44,135 nt of DNA. It comes from Candidatus Omnitrophota bacterium. Its GTDB lineage: Bacteria > Omnitrophota > Gorgyraeia > B26-G9. Where the stretch lies: assembly GCA_016213925.1 (NCBI GenBank), contig JACQZH010000029.1:1-44135 (forward strand). Direction: 5' to 3'. This document shows, one piece after another, positions 15,497 to 29,301 of the stretch (the first letter of the stretch is position 1; each line of letters begins with the position of its first letter). A program made the position numbers and the translations under genes. The notes beneath the pieces were generated by a model that made no database searches, had not been told where the DNA came from, and saw only the letters and a list, made by a program, of their open reading frames with translations.

Positions 15497-15610
15497 GTAG
15501 TAACAGGCAAGGGCGTTATCCTGATTTAAAAACCAGGGAATGTCTTTTTTGTTTTCTGATGTTTGCATGCGAAGATTATCCCAAATTTTAGGATTATAGG
15601 TAAAAAAAAG

Positions 15611-17971: not shown

Positions 17972-19180
17972 ATGTCGAAAGAACTGATTGAAAAGGCAAA
18001 AGAGAAATTTGGGATTATTATTGAAGAGCAGCTTAAGCGGGTTGAGGAAATGAAAAAACCAGTGGAGACTCCGGATTATGCGGCGTTACCGGAGATTATT
18101 ATTGGTATTTGCTGGGGTGATGGAATTGGTAAAATAATATCAAAACACGCGCAGACAGTTTTAGAACATGTTTTAAAAGACGAAGTTGCTAAAGGAAAGA
18201 TTAAATTTAAAGATATTCAAGGATTAACTATTGAGAATAGAGCAAAACATAAAAAGGCAATCCCTGACGATGTATTAGCAGAGATAAAATCCTGTCACGT
18301 GATTCTTAAAGGCCCGACAACCACTCCTCAGGCCGGAGATAAGTGGCCTAATATCGAGAGCGCGAATGTTGCTATACGCCGGTATCTTGATTTGTTTGCT
18401 AATGTTCGCCCTGTACGGATCCCTAAAGAGGGGATTGATTGGTGTTTCTTTCGTGAAAATACCGAAGGAGCTTATGTCTTAGGTTCAAGAGGATTCGATG
18501 TTTCAGATGACTTGAGCGTTGATTTTACGGTAACTACCGAACAAGGTTCGGAACGTATTATTCGCATGGCTTTTGAATATGCGAAAAATAATAACATTGA
18601 TAAAGTAACAGTAGTGACCAAATCCAATGTGGTAAAAACTACAGACGGCAGATTTTCTAAAGCAGCGGTTAGGATTGCCAAGGAATACCCTAAAATAAAA
18701 CTAGATGAGTGGTATATTGATATTATGACTGCGAAGCTGATTGATCCTGCCCGGCGTAAAGAATTTAAAGTCATGGTTTTACCGAATCTTTATGGAGATA
18801 TCCTTACTGATGAGGCAGCGCAGATGCAGGGCGGAGTAGGAACAGCCGGCAGTGCCAATATCGGAAAAAAATGGTCGATGTTTGAAGCAATACATGGAAG
18901 CGCCCCGCGTATGATTGAAGAAGGCCGTGATAAGTTTGCTGACCCTTGTTCGATGATCAGAGCGAGCGCGATGCTGTTAAGGCATATCGGTTTTAAAGAA
19001 CGTGCGGAAAAAATAGAAATGGCATTGGATATCTGCGGCCAGTTTGAAAAGAAAATGTTAATCACAGGAAGAGATACCGGTGTTAGCGGGGAAGAATACA
19101 CAACGTATTTGTTATCATGGGTGGATAATCCTAAGCTGAAAATTCAATGGGAAAAGTCGGTTAACGAGCCGTGTTATTAG
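17972..19180 (+). CDS. icd: Isocitrate dehydrogenase (NADP-type family)
   Basis: 402 residues of the isocitrate/isopropylmalate dehydrogenase superfamily. Marks are the N-terminal GICWGDGIGK, ESANVAIRRYLDLFANVRPV (substrate Arg residues), FFRENTEGAY, the metal-binding NLYGDILTDEAAQMQGG and EAIHGSAP near the cofactor site. Full length. It oxidises isocitrate to 2-oxoglutarate, the carbon skeleton used by the glutamate synthase encoded next. Cofactor choice cannot be settled by eye. The RBS is AAAGGTGA before ATG. Confidence 0.88.
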   Translation: MSKELIEKAKEKFGIIIEEQLKRVEEMKKPVETPDYAALPEIIIGICWGDGIGKIISKHAQTVLEHVLKDEVAKGKIKFKDIQGLTIENRAKHKKAIPDDVLAEIKSCHVILKGPTTTPQAGDKWPNIESANVAIRRYLDLFANVRPVRIPKEGIDWCFFRENTEGAYVLGSRGFDVSDDLSVDFTVTTEQGSERIIRMAFEYAKNNNIDKVTVVTKSNVVKTTDGRFSKAAVRIAKEYPKIKLDEWYIDIMTAKLIDPARRKEFKVMVLPNLYGDILTDEAAQMQGGVGTAGSANIGKKWSMFEAIHGSAPRMIEEGRDKFADPCSMIRASAMLLRHIGFKERAEKIEMALDICGQFEKKMLITGRDTGVSGEEYTTYLLSWVDNPKLKIQWEKSVNEPCY

Positions 19181-19197: not shown

Positions 19198-19226
19198 TTG
19201 ACAAAATAAGCGGGTTTTGCTATTTT
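19198..19226 (+). promoter_or_regulatory. Promoter of the glutamate synthase leader
   Basis: Consensus TTGACA (19198-19203), a 17-base spacer and TATTTT (19221-19226). Transcription would start near 19233, producing a leader that meets a terminator at 19271-19309 before the gene. Confidence 0.65.
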
Positions 19227-19263
19227 TGATTAAAGCAAAGTTTAATTAGTATAGACTAAGTAA

Positions 19264-19309
19264 AGAACAAAGGCGTTCTCTTTTAGGTTGGGGAACGCCT
19301 ATTTTTTTT
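19264..19309 (+). promoter_or_regulatory. ANTAR-type attenuator: hexaloop hairpin overlapping a terminator
   Basis: Hairpin AGAAC-[AAAGGC]-GTTCT (19264-19279) has a six-base loop with A in position 1 and G in position 4, the features of ANTAR-protein target loops. Its loop and 3' arm are also the 5' arm of the terminator at 19271-19309, so the two folds exclude each other. A possible first hairpin, TTAG-[TATAGA]-CTAA (19246-19259), lacks the A1/G4 pattern. The same hexaloop and overlap recur before carA. Confidence 0.65.
19271..19309 (+). terminator. Intrinsic terminator in the glutamate synthase leader
   Basis: A ten-pair stem AGGCGTTCTC/GGGAACGCCT (19271-19280 with 19291-19300) is followed by A and eight T. 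It lies 145 bases before the start codon and downstream of the promoter, so it acts as an attenuator. Bases 19310-19440 hold no gene. Confidence 0.85.
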
Positions 19310-19454
19310 GCCTTGATAGCGTAAAAATAAGGCAAAATATGCGTAAAAATACAGTGCTCCTTTGCGGTTTTGCCGGGGCAAAACAAAGCGTTAGGAGTTA
19401 ATTTGCCGTATTACTTAGCTGTTAAGTAATTGGCTTTTTGAGGAGGTGGATTGT

Positions 19455-20908
19455 ATGATTCAGTGGCCAAAGTCAAATGATGCACTGGGTACAGTTAATC
19501 GCGGTAATCCTTGCGAATCTACTTTGTGTACGTTGTGCCGTGCTGATTGCGCCGGAAAGTGTGAAACATGGCTTTCCAGCTTAAGAGGCAGAAAAATGTT
19601 ATATCCGAGAGATTTCGGATCAGTTACTGCCGGAAGCGCAAATACAACGGCTATTGGCGTAAACTACAATAGTTTACGTATTGACGGATATGTATACGGG
19701 GCAAATGCGTTGCCAAAAGGGCTTTCAAATTCTGAAGATGAATGCGTATTCCCGAATGTAAGCTTAGAAGGCGAATTCGGAACTAAGATTAAAACAAAAT
19801 TTAAAGTACCGATAATGACCGGAGCTTTAGGCTCAACATTTATTGCGGCAAAATACTGGGAATCTTTTGCTATCGGCGCTGCGCTAGTGGGATATCCTAT
19901 TGTAGTTGGTGAAAATGTTGTTGGTGTTGATAGAAGTTCGGAGATTAAAAACGGCAAAATAAGCAAAGCTCCTGAATTGGACAGAAGAATAGAAACATTT
20001 TTACGTTATTACGACGGATACGGCGCGATTATCGTGCAGATGAACGTTGAAGATACGCGCAATGGCGTTGCCGAATACATCATTGAAAAATACGGGGATA
20101 AGGTGATTCTTGAGCTTAAATGGGGACAGGGAGCTAAGGTTATAGGCGGAGAAATACAGGTTACCAGCCTTGATTACGCGATCTTCTTGAAGAAGAGAGG
20201 ATATGTTGTTGACCCAGACCCTGAGAATCCGCAGGTGCAGGAAGCTTTTAAACATGGCGCTGTTAAGTCAATAGCACGCCACAGCCGTCTTGGATATACC
20301 AGTCTTTCCTCACGCGATAAAGTAAAAACAAATTTTATGAACGCGGTGAAATACTTAAGAAAAATCGGCTATAAGAGACGAAGATCCTTGCCGATAGCGG
20401 CAAGCCGGTTGTAGATATGGCGTTTGCCGGCGGCTTAGCTAAAGAAGACCAGATATTCAAAGCGCTTGCTCTAGGCGCGCCTTTTACAAAGCTTGTGTGC
20501 ATGGGCAGGGCGTTGATGATACCGGCTTATTTAGGTTCTAACGTAGAAGGGGTAGTTAATCCGTCAGTAAAGGAAAAATTAAATGGAAATTGGGATAAAC
20601 TTCCTGCTTCTGTTACTGCTTTCGGAACTACGCCGGAAGAACTTTTTTCCGGCTACTATGATGTGCAGAAAAAAGTAGGTAAAAACGAAATGAAAAATAT
20701 TCCTTTAGGCGCGGTTGCCGCGTATACTTTGGCAGATAAATTAGCAGCCGGATTGCAGCAGCTTATGGCTGGGACAAGACATTTCTCTCTCAAGGGAATT
20801 TCCCGCGATGATATTTATGCAGCGAACAGAGAGACGGCAAAGGAGACAGGTATTACTTTTATCTCAGATAAAAGCGACTCGTTAGCAAAGAAAATTATGA
20901 AATCATAA
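19455..20908 (+). CDS. FMN-binding glutamate synthase domain protein (archaeal type), interrupted by a frameshift
   Basis: ATG 19455 has a perfect AGGAGG eight bases upstream. The Cys-rich start (ESTLCTLCRADCAGKCETWL) and the FMN barrel (IMTGALGSTFIAAKYWESFA, GENVVGVDRSSEI, ILELKWGQGAKVIGGEI) identify the stand-alone GltB synthase-domain family. One base is missing at about 20376-20378: the first frame stops at 20414, while ILADSGKPVVDMAFAGGLAK, the FMN phosphate site, continues in the next frame to 20908 (VKEKLNGNWDKLP and a C-terminal helical part). It lacks the amidotransferase domain. The role is glutamate formation with NfnB/NADPH nearby. The join restores a normal protein, so an assembly error is likely but unproven. 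Confidence 0.85.
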
Positions 20909-21001: not shown

Positions 21002-21030
21002 TTGACAATATTTTAGCAGTATGTTAAGTT
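21002..21030 (+). promoter_or_regulatory. Promoter of the carA leader
   Basis: TTGACA (21002-21007), a 17-base spacer and a weak TAAGTT (21025-21030). It sits just before the second hexaloop attenuator, mirroring the glutamate synthase leader. Confidence 0.5.
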
Positions 21031-21042
21031 AAAAAAGATGCT

Positions 21043-21085
21043 GGAACAAAGGCGTTCCCCGTTAAACAGGGAGAATGCCTTTTTT
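21043..21085 (+). promoter_or_regulatory. ANTAR-type attenuator before carAB
   Basis: Hairpin GGAAC-[AAAGGC]-GTTCC (21043-21058) carries the same hexaloop as the leader at 19264, but its basal pair is G-C instead of A-T, a compensatory change that supports the fold. The terminator stem AGGCGTTCCCC/AGGGAGAATGCCT (21050-21060 with 21068-21080, one bulged A, one G-T) followed by six T overlaps it. No first hairpin is evident. carA starts 199 bases further on. The gap is AT-rich and contains a possible second promoter (TTGATT and TATAAA near 21165-21195). Confidence 0.65.
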
Positions 21086-21283
21086 ATATTCAGGTAAATA
21101 ATTTTTGATGTAACTTTTTAATATATTTATAGTTATGATGAAAGATTAAAAAAGGCTTTTTAATTGATTTAATTTGTAATATAATTATATAAAGTATATT
21201 TCCTGCATAAATTCTGGTTTCCTCATGAGGTCATAAAAAAACGAGATTTTTAGCGTATATTATTGCATGAAAAATGTTTTACA

Positions 21284-22384
21284 ATGACGAATACTAAAAG
21301 AAAAAAAGCAATAGTTGTTTTGGAAGACGGAATTAGTTTTACTGGTTTTTCATTTGGCGCAACTGGTACGGCATCCGGAGAAGTTGTCTTTAATACCAGC
21401 CTTTCGGGTTATCAGGAAATACTTACCGATCCTTCTTACAAGGGGCAGATTGTTACAATGACGTACCCGCTTATCGGTAATTACGGGGTTAATAAAGAAG
21501 ATGTTGAGTCAAGACGGCCTTTTGTCGAGGGTTTTATTGTAAAAGAATGTTCACGCATTGCCAGTAACTGGCGTTCTTGCGATACGCTGGATAATTATTT
21601 GAAAGAAAATAATATTATCGGTATAGAAGGCGTTGATACCCGAGCGATTACCCGCCATACAAGGCTTCAGGGAGCAATGAAAGCAGTGATTTCTTCAGAG
21701 GATTTGGATGTTGAAAATTTGCTTAAAAAAGTCAGGGCATCTAAAGGCTTAGTCGGTAAAGATCTGGTTAATGAAGTCAGCTGTAAAGAGATTTATCAAT
21801 GGAACAATGAAGGCGAGTATCATGTTGTTGTGATAGATTGCGGAGTAAAGCTGAATATTTTAAGGTCGCTTGCGCTGAATAACTGCCGGGTTAGCGTTGT
21901 CCCTGCGAATACTTCTTCAGTAGAAATTTTAAAATTAAATCCGGACGGTATAATGCTTTCCAACGGCCCGGGAGATCCTGAACCGCTGACATATGTCGTA
22001 AAAACAATACGGGAATTATTGGGAAAAATTCCGGTTTTCGGCATTTGCCTTGGACAGCAACTGCTTGGCTTAGCTTTAGGAGGAAGAACCTATAAACTGA
22101 AATTCGGGCATCACGGAGCAAACCAGCCGGTTAAGGATTTAAAAACCGGAAAAATCGATATTACCGCCCAGAATCACGGATTTTGTGTTGATATAGAATC
22201 GCTTAATAAAGATGAGGTTGAGATTACGCATATTAATCTTAATGATAATACGTTAGAAGGATTGCGGCATAGAAAACTGCCGGTTTTTTCCGTGCAATAT
22301 CATCCGGAAAGCTGCCCCGGCCCGCATGACGCGCAGTACCTGTTTAAAAATTTTATTGAAATGATAGAGGAAAATAAACACTAA
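21284..22384 (+). CDS. carA: Carbamoyl-phosphate synthase small (glutaminase) subunit
   Basis: 366 residues. The N-terminal CarA domain (KAIVVLEDGISFTGFSFGAT, FNTSLSGYQEILTDPSYKGQ, GIEGVDTRAITRHTR) is followed by a class I glutamine amidotransferase with nucleophile Cys255 in FGICLGQQLLGLALGG and the His-Glu pair in VQYHPESCPG. It releases ammonia from glutamine for CarB. ATG 21284 gives a normal family N-terminus; an in-frame TTG at 21263 is less likely. No strong RBS is seen. carB follows after 56 bases, so both form one operon controlled by the upstream attenuator. Confidence 0.95.
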   Translation: MTNTKRKKAIVVLEDGISFTGFSFGATGTASGEVVFNTSLSGYQEILTDPSYKGQIVTMTYPLIGNYGVNKEDVESRRPFVEGFIVKECSRIASNWRSCDTLDNYLKENNIIGIEGVDTRAITRHTRLQGAMKAVISSEDLDVENLLKKVRASKGLVGKDLVNEVSCKEIYQWNNEGEYHVVVIDCGVKLNILRSLALNNCRVSVVPANTSSVEILKLNPDGIMLSNGPGDPEPLTYVVKTIRELLGKIPVFGICLGQQLLGLALGGRTYKLKFGHHGANQPVKDLKTGKIDITAQNHGFCVDIESLNKDEVEITHINLNDNTLEGLRHRKLPVFSVQYHPESCPGPHDAQYLFKNFIEMIEENKH

Positions 22385-22440: not shown

Positions 22441-25400
22441 GTGCCAAAAAGGGTTGACATAAAAAAAATACTGATTATCGGCTCAGGCCCGATTATTATC
22501 GGACAGGCTTGTGAATTCGATTATTCCGGAACCCAGGCCTGTAAAGCGCTGAAAGAAGAAGGGTATGAAGTTGTGCTGATTAATTCCAATCCGGCAACGA
22601 TTATGACCGACCCGGAAATAGCGGACGCGACATATATTGAGCCGATTACTCCCGAGGTATTGGAGAAGATTATTGAAAGAGAACGCCCGGACGCGGTATT
22701 GCCGACTTTAGGCGGGCAGACCGGGCTTAATACTGCGGTTAAGGCTTCGGAAATGGGAATCTTTGATAAATATAATGTTAAGATGATCGGAGCAAATACC
22801 CAGGCGATTCATAAAGCTGAAGATAGAAAACTTTTTAAAGAAGCGATGAAAAAAATCGGGCTGGATGTTCCGCGCAGCGCTCTAGCTTATAACATGGAAG
22901 AAGCGCGTAAGGCTTGCAAGAAAATCGGGCTGCCTGTGATTATCAGGCCGAGCTTTACTTTAGGAGGCACAGGCGGAGGCATTGTAAATACGGAAGATGA
23001 GTTTGAAAAGATAGCGGAACTAGGGCTAAAAAGCAGTATGATTAGCGAGATTCTGGTTGAAGAATCCGTGCTCGGCTGGAAAGAATACGAGCTCGAAGTA
23101 ATGCGTGATATAAAGGATAATGTGGTTATTGTCTGCTCCATAGAAAATTTTGACCCAATGGGTATTCATACAGGCGATTCGATTACCGTGGCTCCGGCGC
23201 AGACCTTGACTGACGTGGAATATCAAAAGATGAGGGATGCTTCTATTTCGATTATCCGTGAAATTGGAGTGGAGACCGGCGGTTCTAATATCCAGTTCGC
23301 GGTTAATCCCGAGAACGGCCGGATGGTTGTTATTGAAATGAACCCGCGTGTATCCAGGAGTTCGGCATTAGCAAGTAAAGCCACCGGATTTCCAATCGCT
23401 AAATTTGCCGCTAAGCTTGCCGTGGGGTATACGCTGGATGAAATCCGCAACGACATTACTAAAGAGACTCCGGCTTCTTTTGAACCGACAATAGATTACT
23501 GTGTGGTGAAAATTCCGCGTTTTACTTTTGAAAAATTTCCCGAAGCGCAGGATATCCTGGGGATTTCCATGAAATCCGTCGGCGAAACAATGGCCATCGG
23601 CCGTACATTTAAAGAAGCTTTGCAAAAAGGCCTGCGCGGATTGGAAATCGGGCATAACGGCCTGGATAATAAAAAAAAGTATACCGAGATTGATGATGAA
23701 AAACTAAATCAGAGGCTCAAAGAGCCTAATGCTTCAAGGATATTTTATATAAAATACGCTTTGCAAAGGGGAATGAGCGTAGAAGAAATATGCCGGATGA
23801 CTAAAATCGATCCTTGGTTTATATTTAATATTAATGAGATTGTACTGCTGGAAAAAGAAATCATTCTTTCAAGCAGGAAAACCCGTGGAATGGGGTTTGA
23901 CAGCGGCCTTTTACTGCAGGCTAAACAATTTGGCTTCAGTGACAAGCAAATAGCCCAGCTTATAGAAACTGATGAATTGGCTGTGAGGAATTTCAGGCAA
24001 AAAAAAGGGGTGGAGCCGACCTATAAACTGGTTGATACCTGCGCGGCGGAATTCGAAGCTTATACGCCGTATTACTATTCAACATATGAGTCGGAGGATG
24101 AGACCAGAAGTTCGGATAAGAAAAAAATAATGATCTTGGGCGGCGGGCCGAACCGCATCGGCCAGGGGATTGAGTTTGATTATTGCTGCTGCCATGCCGC
24201 TTTTGCCTTAAAAGAACTCGGGTTTGAAACGATAATGGTCAATTCTAATCCTGAAACGGTTTCAACAGATTACGATACTTCGGATAAATTATACTTTGAG
24301 CCGCTTACTTTTGAAGACGTTATGAATATCGTGGACAAAGAAAAACCGGACGGGATTATTGTTCAGTTTGGCGGGCAAACGCCGCTTAATCTTGCGAAAA
24401 ATCTTGCCGATGCCGGAGCTCCGATAATCGGCACTTCCGTGGAAGCTATTGACCGCGCGGAAGACAGGGATAAATTTTCAAAAATTATTACAAAGCTTAA
24501 GATCAGCCAGCCTCCGAATGGTTCTGCTGTTTCGTGGGAGCAGGCGGTTAGTATTACCAAGGAGATTGGATATCCTGTGCTGGTCAGGCCTTCATATGTT
24601 TTGGGAGGCAGAGCAATGAGGATTGTCTATAATGAGGCGGATTTAAAGATCTTTATGAAAGAAGCTGTGGAGGCTTCGGAACAACGGCCTATTTTAATAG
24701 ATAAATTTTTGGAAGATGCAGTGGAAGTTGATGTTGATGCTGTTTCTGACGGAAATACTACGGTTATCGGCGGAATTATGGAACATATCGAAGAAGCCGG
24801 AGTGCATTCCGGAGATTCCGCCTGTGTTCTTCCTCCGCATACTTTGAGCGATGATATTATTGAGACAATACGCAAGCATACTTTTGCTTTATCAAAAGAA
24901 TTAGGAGTAATGGGATTGATTAACATCCAGTTTGCGGTGAAAAATGACGAAGTTTATATTTTGGAAGTTAATCCCCGCGCGTCACGCACTGTGCCTTTTG
25001 TCAGCAAGGCTACGGGAGTTCCTTTGGCTAAAATCGCCGCCAAAGTTATGGTTGGAAAAAAGTTAACAGAGCTTGGGGTAATAGATGAGAAAAAGATCGA
25101 GCATGTTTGCGTAAAAGAATCCGTGCTTCCGTTTTCCCGTTTTTCCGGCGTGGATATTATTCTTGGCCCTGAGATGAAATCAACAGGGGAGGTCATGGGC
25201 ATTGACACGTCATTCGGAATGGCTTTTTACAAATCACAGCTGGCTGCCGGGTCTTTGCTTCCGGAAAAAGGACAGGTGTTTATAAGCGTGAAAAATAGCG
25301 ATAAAAGGAACATAGTTTTTATCGCTAAAAAAATTTCCGATATGGGGCTGGAGATCATTGCCACAAAAGGGACGGCAAAGGTTTTAAAGTCGAATAACAT

Positions 25401-25665
25401 AAAGGTAAAAGTAGTCGGTAAAATCGGAGAGGGAGATAACGATATCCTTAAACTCATAGGAAAAGGGGAAATAAAGCTGGTTATCAATACTCCAAACGGA
25501 GCGCGCGGCCAGTCCGACATGAAACCGATGCGCAGCGCCGCTGTCATGCGTGGTATTACTTGTATTACAACGATACAAGGCGCCCAGGCTGCGGTTAATG
25601 GGATGGAAGCGCGTTATAAGGGTGATTTTTCCGTAAAATCGATTCAGGAATTTTTAAGCGTTTAA
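22441..25665 (+). CDS. carB: Carbamoyl-phosphate synthase large subunit
   Basis: 1074 residues, full length. Two homologous ATP-grasp halves are visible: [20 protein letters not shown] and later [20 protein letters not shown]; each has the glycine loop ([20 protein letters not shown]) and metal-binding ENPR-like strands ([24 protein letters not shown]). The C-terminal MGS-like regulatory domain (about 940-1074) ends [10 protein letters not shown]. It makes carbamoyl phosphate from bicarbonate, ammonia and two ATP, for pyrimidines and arginine. GTG start with AAAGGAAAAT upstream; a terminator at 25676 closes the operon. Confidence 0.97.
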
Positions 25666-25675
25666 TGAAGCTCAT

Positions 25676-25699
25676 CCGGGCTAAAGCCCGGGGTTTTTT
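25676..25699 (+). terminator. Terminator after carB
   Basis: Perfect CCGGGC-TAAA-GCCCGG hairpin followed by GGG and six T. Confidence 0.9.
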
Positions 25700-25733: not shown

Positions 25734-28567
<2,834 letters not shown>

Positions 28568-28569
<2 letters not shown>

Positions 28570-28599: not shown

Positions 28600-29301
28600 A
28601 TGAAGTCATACAAAGAATATATAGAAACATTAAATAAAATAAGTAAAGCAATAACCAGCGATCTTTACCTTGAAGATGTTTTAAAATTGATTGTTACCTT
28701 GACGGCCAATGTCATGAAAGCGAAGATCTGCGCGTTATGGCTGCTAGACGAAGAAAATAAAACACTGAAGATTAAAGCAACGCAGGCGTTGAGCAGTGAA
28801 TATTTAAAAGAGCGTAGTTTGAAATTAGGGGAGGGTATTGTCGGTTATGTTGCCAAAAGCAAAAAGCCGATGGTAATTGCGGATGTTTTACAGGACGAAC
28901 GCTATAAAGAAAAAACATTGGCAAAAAAAGAAAATCTTGTTTCAATGCTCAGCGTGCCGATGCTTGTCAAAAACAGAGTGATCGGAGTTATTAATTGCTA
29001 TACTACGGTTAGATATGATTTTGAAGAAAGTGATGTCCAGCTTTTAAGCACTGTCGCCAATCAGGCCGCAGTGGCGATCGAGAATACCGAGCTTATGGTT
29101 AAAACAAAAGTTGTCCAGGAAGAATTAGAGACTAGAAAAAAAGTAGAAAAAGCAAAAGGAATTTTAATGCGTGAGCAAAATTTAAATGAGGAAGACGCGT
29201 ATAATCTACTGCGCAAATCAAGCATGTCGAAACGCATGCATATGAAAGATATTGCCGGAGCGATAATTCTTTCCTATGAAATCAAACAGGGAAAACGTTA
29301 A
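28600..29301 (+). CDS. GAF-ANTAR transcription antiterminator
   Basis: 233 residues. A GAF sensor domain occupies about 20-165 (LGEGIVGYVAKSKKPMVIAD, LLSTVANQAAVAIENTELM), a helix links it to an ANTAR domain at about 175-228 with the signature KAKGILMREQNLNEEDAYNL, LRKSS and DIAGAIILS. ANTAR proteins bind pairs of hexaloop RNA hairpins and prevent intrinsic termination, often in nitrogen metabolism. The glutamate synthase and carA leaders in this window have such hairpins, so they are its likely targets. It has no receiver domain, hence GAF ligand binding is the probable input. The RBS is weak (ACCGG). Confidence 0.9.
   Translation: MKSYKEYIETLNKISKAITSDLYLEDVLKLIVTLTANVMKAKICALWLLDEENKTLKIKATQALSSEYLKERSLKLGEGIVGYVAKSKKPMVIADVLQDERYKEKTLAKKENLVSMLSVPMLVKNRVIGVINCYTTVRYDFEESDVQLLSTVANQAAVAIENTELMVKTKVVQEELETRKKVEKAKGILMREQNLNEEDAYNLLRKSSMSKRMHMKDIAGAIILSYEIKQGKR

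Follow-up and report, generated by a model that had tools for sequence, protein, structure and literature searches.

Is the gltB-like glutamate synthase gene in this Candidatus Omnitrophota DNA governed by an ANTAR-type transcription attenuator, and, if so, by which protein and through how many hairpins? ANTAR-target RNAs are defined as dual hairpins, here called P1 and P2. A loop with A at position 1 and G at position 4 (A1/G4), closed by A-U and C-G pairs, is the ANTAR recognition rule (PMC3369931, PMC7496416). This kind of attenuator is already known: Ramesh et al. (2012, PMC3369931) describe ANTAR-target RNAs with overlapping terminators ahead of glutamate synthase genes in Desulfotomaculum reducens and ahead of other nitrogen genes in D. 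acetoxidans. The window analyzed here is the whole 44,135-nt stretch, and its source is an uncultivated Omnitrophota genome of 2.27 Mb that is 90% complete. The gltB leader is very probably an ANTAR-type attenuator run by a GAF-ANTAR protein encoded in the same window, as is a second leader before carA, and a single hairpin probably serves in both. New, as far as the literature searched shows, are a regulon of this kind in Omnitrophota and an architecture with one hairpin. No one-hairpin form of the ANTAR switch is described there, and a search for ANTAR in Omnitrophota gave only other-word matches, e.g., "Antarctic."

Leaders and genes of the window

The preliminary description named a promoter, a hairpin, and an overlapping terminator ahead of gltB, and all are present (Table 1). 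Transcription is predicted to start at about 19233. The terminator AGGCGTTCTCTTTTAGGTTGGGGAACGCCT (19271–19300) has 11 pairs, six of them GC. Since the loop and 3′ arm of P2 form its 5′ arm, the two folds are mutually exclusive, as had been proposed. The predicted default fold of the leader RNA is the terminator, at −22.1 kcal/mol with a z-score of −3.7, and 0 of 200 shuffles were equally stable. Across 60 dinucleotide-shuffled versions of the entire window, a hairpin of at least 5 bp with an A1/G4 hexaloop that overlaps a terminator with 10 or more pairs occurs 0.02 times on average, and the real window has two. A canonical A1/G4 P1 was looked for upstream of P2 and was not found, in agreement with the preliminary description. 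That region holds only non-canonical hairpins, TTAG-[TATAGA]-CTAA and the P1-like hairpin of Table 1, which is possibly a decayed first hairpin. Between the terminator and gltB (19310–19350), the window and relatives L048–L078 carry a TGCCT-N-AGGCA inverted repeat followed by TGCnTA/TGATTA, which may be an operator or RNA element in its own right.

Table 1. Features of the window that bear on the two leaders and their presumed regulator
Feature	Position	Strand	Remarks
Degenerate leader GTAAC-[AGGCAAGGGC]-GTTAT plus terminator	15500..15551	+	Tentative; before NfnA-like gene at 15563; 12–14 bits
gltB leader promoter, sigma-70 type, TTGACA-N17-TATTTT	19198..19226	+	Predicted; extended −10 TG; TTGACA 19198–19203, TATTTT 19221–19226
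gltB leader P1-like hairpin AGTTTA-[ATTAGTA]-TAGACT	19239..19257	+	Non-canonical; 7-nt loop, A1 kept, G at position 5
gltB leader P2 antiterminator hairpin AGAAC-[AAAGGC]-GTTCT	19264..19279	+	Arms 19264–19268 and 19275–19279, loop 19269–19274; A1/G4 loop, A-U/C-G closing pairs
gltB leader intrinsic terminator	19271..19309	+	Shares P2 loop and 3′ arm; hairpin followed by A, then T8 at 19302–19309
Glutamate-synthase-domain gene (gltB-like)	19446..20908	+	Presumed regulated gene; two frames in the MAG
carA leader promoter TTGACA-N17-TAAGTT	21002..21030	+	Predicted; extended −10 TG
carA leader P2 GGAAC-[AAAGGC]-GTTCC	21043..21058	+	12 nt 3′ of the −10; loop 21048–21053
carA leader terminator	21049..21085	+	Overlaps P2; hairpin to 21081; z-score −4.1
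carA	21263–22384	+	Presumed second target, with carB
carB	22441–25665	+	Presumed second target, with carA
GAF-ANTAR protein gene	28600..29301	+	Presumed RNA-binding antiterminator, from sequence; sole ANTAR protein detected in the genome, E 1.8e-18

Genes and leaders are arranged in the order NfnA-like, gltA, icd, leader, gltB, leader, carA, carB, purF, pyrG, ANTAR. The relatives of the gltB-like protein are mostly Candidatus Omnitrophota MAGs. This glutamate synthase is of the MIQWPK type; it falls below the Pfam cut-off when truncated, and a full-length relative matches PF01645 at 5.6e-16. Compared with relatives, about 63 residues (L050 residues 310–372) are missing at about 20379–20380, and the frame split may be a MAG assembly error or a real loss. 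In the 25734–28569 region, there is an in-frame TAG in purF at about 26370, and about 48 internal residues present in relatives are absent from pyrG; with gltB, this makes three damaged genes in one cluster. A separate terminator-like hairpin lies 3′ of carB, at about 25677–25699.

The carA leader and the ANTAR gene are both absent from the preliminary description. Searching the genome for exact matches to the full motif returned the gltB site only, and the carA site was recovered by a structural scan and a covariance model. Both window leaders have the AC/GU closing pairs. Because the carA promoter adjoins P2, this leader has no room for a P1. A tentative third leader precedes the NfnA-like gene, with a score that is not significant alone; NfnA-like genes are leader targets in nine relatives.

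The GAF-ANTAR gene lies about 9 kb from the gltB leader, and its product scores 64.7 bits against PF03861, for which the Pfam gathering score is 27.3. Nine of the 11 RNA-contact residues of Enterococcus faecalis EutV (6wsh) are identical in it (R142, K143, K147, K149, E160, Y164, R168, M172, and R175), and the other two are changed (N173 to Ser and R177 to His). Contact residues are those of PMC8934654; by our own reading, the 6wsh chain numbering had to be shifted by two to agree with that paper.

Conservation, targets, and co-occurrence

The preliminary description had made conservation of the AAAGGC loop a test of its reading, and invariant A1 and G4 are kept ahead of Omnitrophota gltB. Homologous leaders carry the loops AAAGGC, AAAGAC, AAGGGC, AACGAC, and AAAGGT, and the A1/G4 loop is also kept in leaders of nitrogen genes other than gltB. 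Where a terminator was found upstream of Omnitrophota gltB, the best one, picked without loop sequence as a criterion, starts in an A1/G4 loop in nearly every case. The exact motif pattern gave forward matches in 31 of 384 class genomes versus one for the reversed control. Among 111 covariance-model matches, A1/G4 is found in all, partly by selection, and AC precedes the loop in 109.

Both helices covary in an alignment of 47 leaders. Because P2 pairing close to the loop was among the criteria for choosing its members, the two inner P2 pairs are no evidence of covariation. Six of the eight P2 pairs have changes on both sides. Covariation scores were 0.326 for P2 versus 0.198 in shuffles, and 0.452 for the terminator versus 0.247 (0 of 500 shuffles in each case). 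Alignment columns 17–18 covary with both the P2 5′ arm and the terminator 3′ arm, which is the expectation for two alternative folds.

With model R1, only two sites in the genome rose above noise, at E 1e-6 and 3e-5, and the next match had 0.38. Model R2, built without any window sequence, gave the gltB and carA sites E-values of 1.7e-5 and 1.3e-3 on the genome (next 0.55) and placed the gltB site at 3e-7 on the window. With the covariance model (E ≤0.01), leaders were detected in 214 of 384 class genomes, and ANTAR genes are present in 287. Both occur in 197 genomes, a leader only in 17, an ANTAR gene only in 90, and neither in 80 (odds ratio 10.3, p 6e-19, with genomes treated as independent and phylogeny ignored). 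Many of the 17 leader-bearing genomes in which no ANTAR gene was detected are incomplete MAGs.

Proteins encoded downstream of the leaders (109) include glutamate dehydrogenase (gdhA, 22), Amt (10), NfnA-like proteins (9), and CarA (up to 7, of which 5 have the CarA-specific domain). PyrG, glutamine synthetase (glnA), and CarB occur four times each, and P-II (glnB) and PurF three times each. The GltB class-II amidotransferase domain, type III glutamine synthetase, and ANTAR itself are each found twice, and NifH and a prismane-family protein once. Others among these downstream proteins are the MIQWPK-type glutamate synthase also seen in the window.

First hairpin and one-hairpin leaders

An A1/G4 hexaloop P1 with a short linker was found in neither window leader. 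The carA leader is of the P1-less type, and the gltB leader is long with a non-canonical P1-like hairpin. Canonical P1 hairpins do occur in the group. The same-family relative L048 has CAATAC-[AATGGT]-GTATTG, and long leaders hold 24 A1/G4 P1 hairpins versus 0.8 expected by chance. Among 16 strong hairpins with 6- or 7-nt loops, picked without regard to loop sequence, 14 have A1 and G4.

The −10 element stands 2–20 nt 5′ of P2 in about 44 of 94 non-redundant promoter-bearing leaders, and at that distance a P1 cannot fit. The other 50 are long; 56 further leaders with no recognizable promoter lie outside this count. TTGAC[AT] is sharply enriched 37–49 nt 5′ of the loop across relatives, so that P2 would lie at the transcript's 5′ end or close to it. 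By free energy, the P2 of P1-less leaders is the more stable in both sets (p 2e-5 and 6e-5, phylogeny ignored). Longer P2 stems in P1-less leaders were seen in the first set (p 5e-5), did not hold in the independent set (p 0.13), and were rejected as a feature. L059 and L061 come from genomes that each combine a gltB leader with P1, a second leader without it (carA, pyrG), and a single detected ANTAR gene.

Deletion of P1 abolishes eutP induction by EutV (PMC3369931), and NasR binds P2 alone at about 12 µM versus about 1 µM for both hairpins, about 12-fold more weakly (PMC7496416). As P1 is essential in the one system and raises affinity in the other, yet is missing here, the window leaders look like a single-hairpin variant. 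We lean towards a single-hairpin ANTAR attenuator in Omnitrophota with P2 at or close to the 5′ end of the transcript, and one ANTAR protein serving one- and two-hairpin leaders in the same cell. If so, P1 would be dispensable, contrary to the EutV rule.

Mechanism and alternatives

The proposed mechanism is as follows. Transcription would start near 19233, and by default the RNA would fold into the 19271–19300 terminator, with RNA polymerase stopping about 70–77 nt downstream. The active GAF-ANTAR protein would bind and stabilize the AAAGGC hexaloop hairpin P2; with P2 held, the terminator would be blocked and transcription would run on into the glutamate synthase gene. Control of carA would rest with the same protein, acting on the second leader. 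What the GAF domain senses is presumably a shortage of nitrogen. Since a canonical P1 is missing from both window leaders, action through one hairpin is probable. The ANTAR attenuator reading of the preliminary description thus gains from loop conservation, from the covariation of both helices, and from the presence in the window of the only ANTAR gene detected in the genome; the dual-hairpin definition does not fit these leaders.

The 19271–19300 hairpin could instead be merely the intrinsic terminator of icd (isocitrate dehydrogenase, 17972–19180), with the hexaloop hairpin as a by-product. It lies 90 nt 3′ of the icd stop codon, in the sort of gap that often holds an intrinsic terminator. 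However, a strong promoter stands between icd and the terminator, and the shared arm covaries with the P2 5′ arm, for which a plain terminator has no use. The loop recurs ahead of carA, and in relatives it stands before scores of nitrogen genes whose upstream neighbors are unrelated. The promoter and the covarying antiterminator arm lead us to reject this explanation, which is very improbable. Only a shade less improbable is an attenuator run by another factor, such as a small-molecule riboswitch, a leader peptide, or a different RNA-binding protein. We infer ANTAR binding to the leader, 17 leader-bearing genomes have no detected ANTAR gene, and canonical P1 hairpins are missing from the window leaders, all of which leave room for such a factor. 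Against it stand the A1/G4 loop with its A-U/C-G closing pairs, the pattern that ANTAR proteins recognize (PMC3369931, PMC7496416), the strong co-occurrence of leaders and ANTAR genes, and the full dual hairpins in leaders of the same family and class. Nor did any Rfam cis-regulatory family match at its curated score in the window or near the leader; sub-threshold matches (PyrR, P11, SR6, and others) are far below gathering scores and were dismissed as chance.

Granted an ANTAR attenuator, the gltB leader could still work with two hairpins, 19239–19257 serving as P1. This hairpin is in the P1 position with a suitable linker length, and relatives have 7-nt P1 loops (AATGTTA, AAGGTTA, and others). 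Those loops keep G4, whereas here the G is at position 5, and no P1 of any kind would fit in the carA leader; a two-hairpin gltB leader is therefore rather unlikely. The one-hairpin ANTAR attenuator is preferred.

Comparison with known ANTAR systems

The Omnitrophota leaders resemble those of Desulfotomaculum in the A1/G4 hexaloop, the overlap of P2 and terminator, nitrogen targets including glutamate synthase, and several leaders per genome. They differ from these dual-hairpin Firmicutes leaders in that the window leaders have no canonical P1 and in that class targets include carA, purF, pyrG, and gdhA. The E. faecalis EutV-eut system shares the A1/G4 loop, the A-U and C-G closing pairs, and a mutually exclusive terminator (PMC3369931, PMC8934654), besides nine of the 11 RNA-contact residues. 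EutV is a phosphorylated response regulator that needs P1 and a short linker, whereas the Omnitrophota protein has a GAF sensor and P1 is non-canonical or absent. Klebsiella oxytoca NasR-nasF is likewise a one-component ANTAR regulator that acts on a nitrogen operon by attenuation (PMC7496416), but it senses through a NIT domain instead of GAF, and both hairpins are present in the nasF leader.

These leaders extend ANTAR attenuation to a large uncultivated phylum. One regulator with scattered leaders (gdhA, amt, glnA, glnB, gltB, carAB, purF, and pyrG) looks like a main nitrogen-assimilation switch. Natural one-hairpin leaders also bear on the open question of P1, which is essential in E. faecalis; the EutV-RNA structure was read as successive binding, in which a dimer would be unable to hold both hairpins at the same time and P1 would only recruit (PMC8934654). 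Genomes that mix P1-less and P1-bearing leaders with one detected ANTAR gene make a direct test of the role of P1 possible.

Further upstream elements were seen among relatives. Leaders L005, L006, L008, L014, L023, L032, L068, L071, and L127 have in common an upstream GTTACCAAA...TTTTACTT element, which may be a promoter or activator site. The genes behind these leaders are glnB, amt, ANTAR, hcp, and glnA, and the leaders have no sigma-70 match. Upstream of non-Omnitrophota gltB (FCPU426, Goldiibacteriota, and Deltaproteobacteria) are GGCAA/TTGCC inverted repeats, not ANTAR leaders (L051, L052, L057, L058, L098, L100, and L101). Tandem attenuator pairs stand before one gene in L006, L008, L014, L023, L028, L031, L037, and L063.
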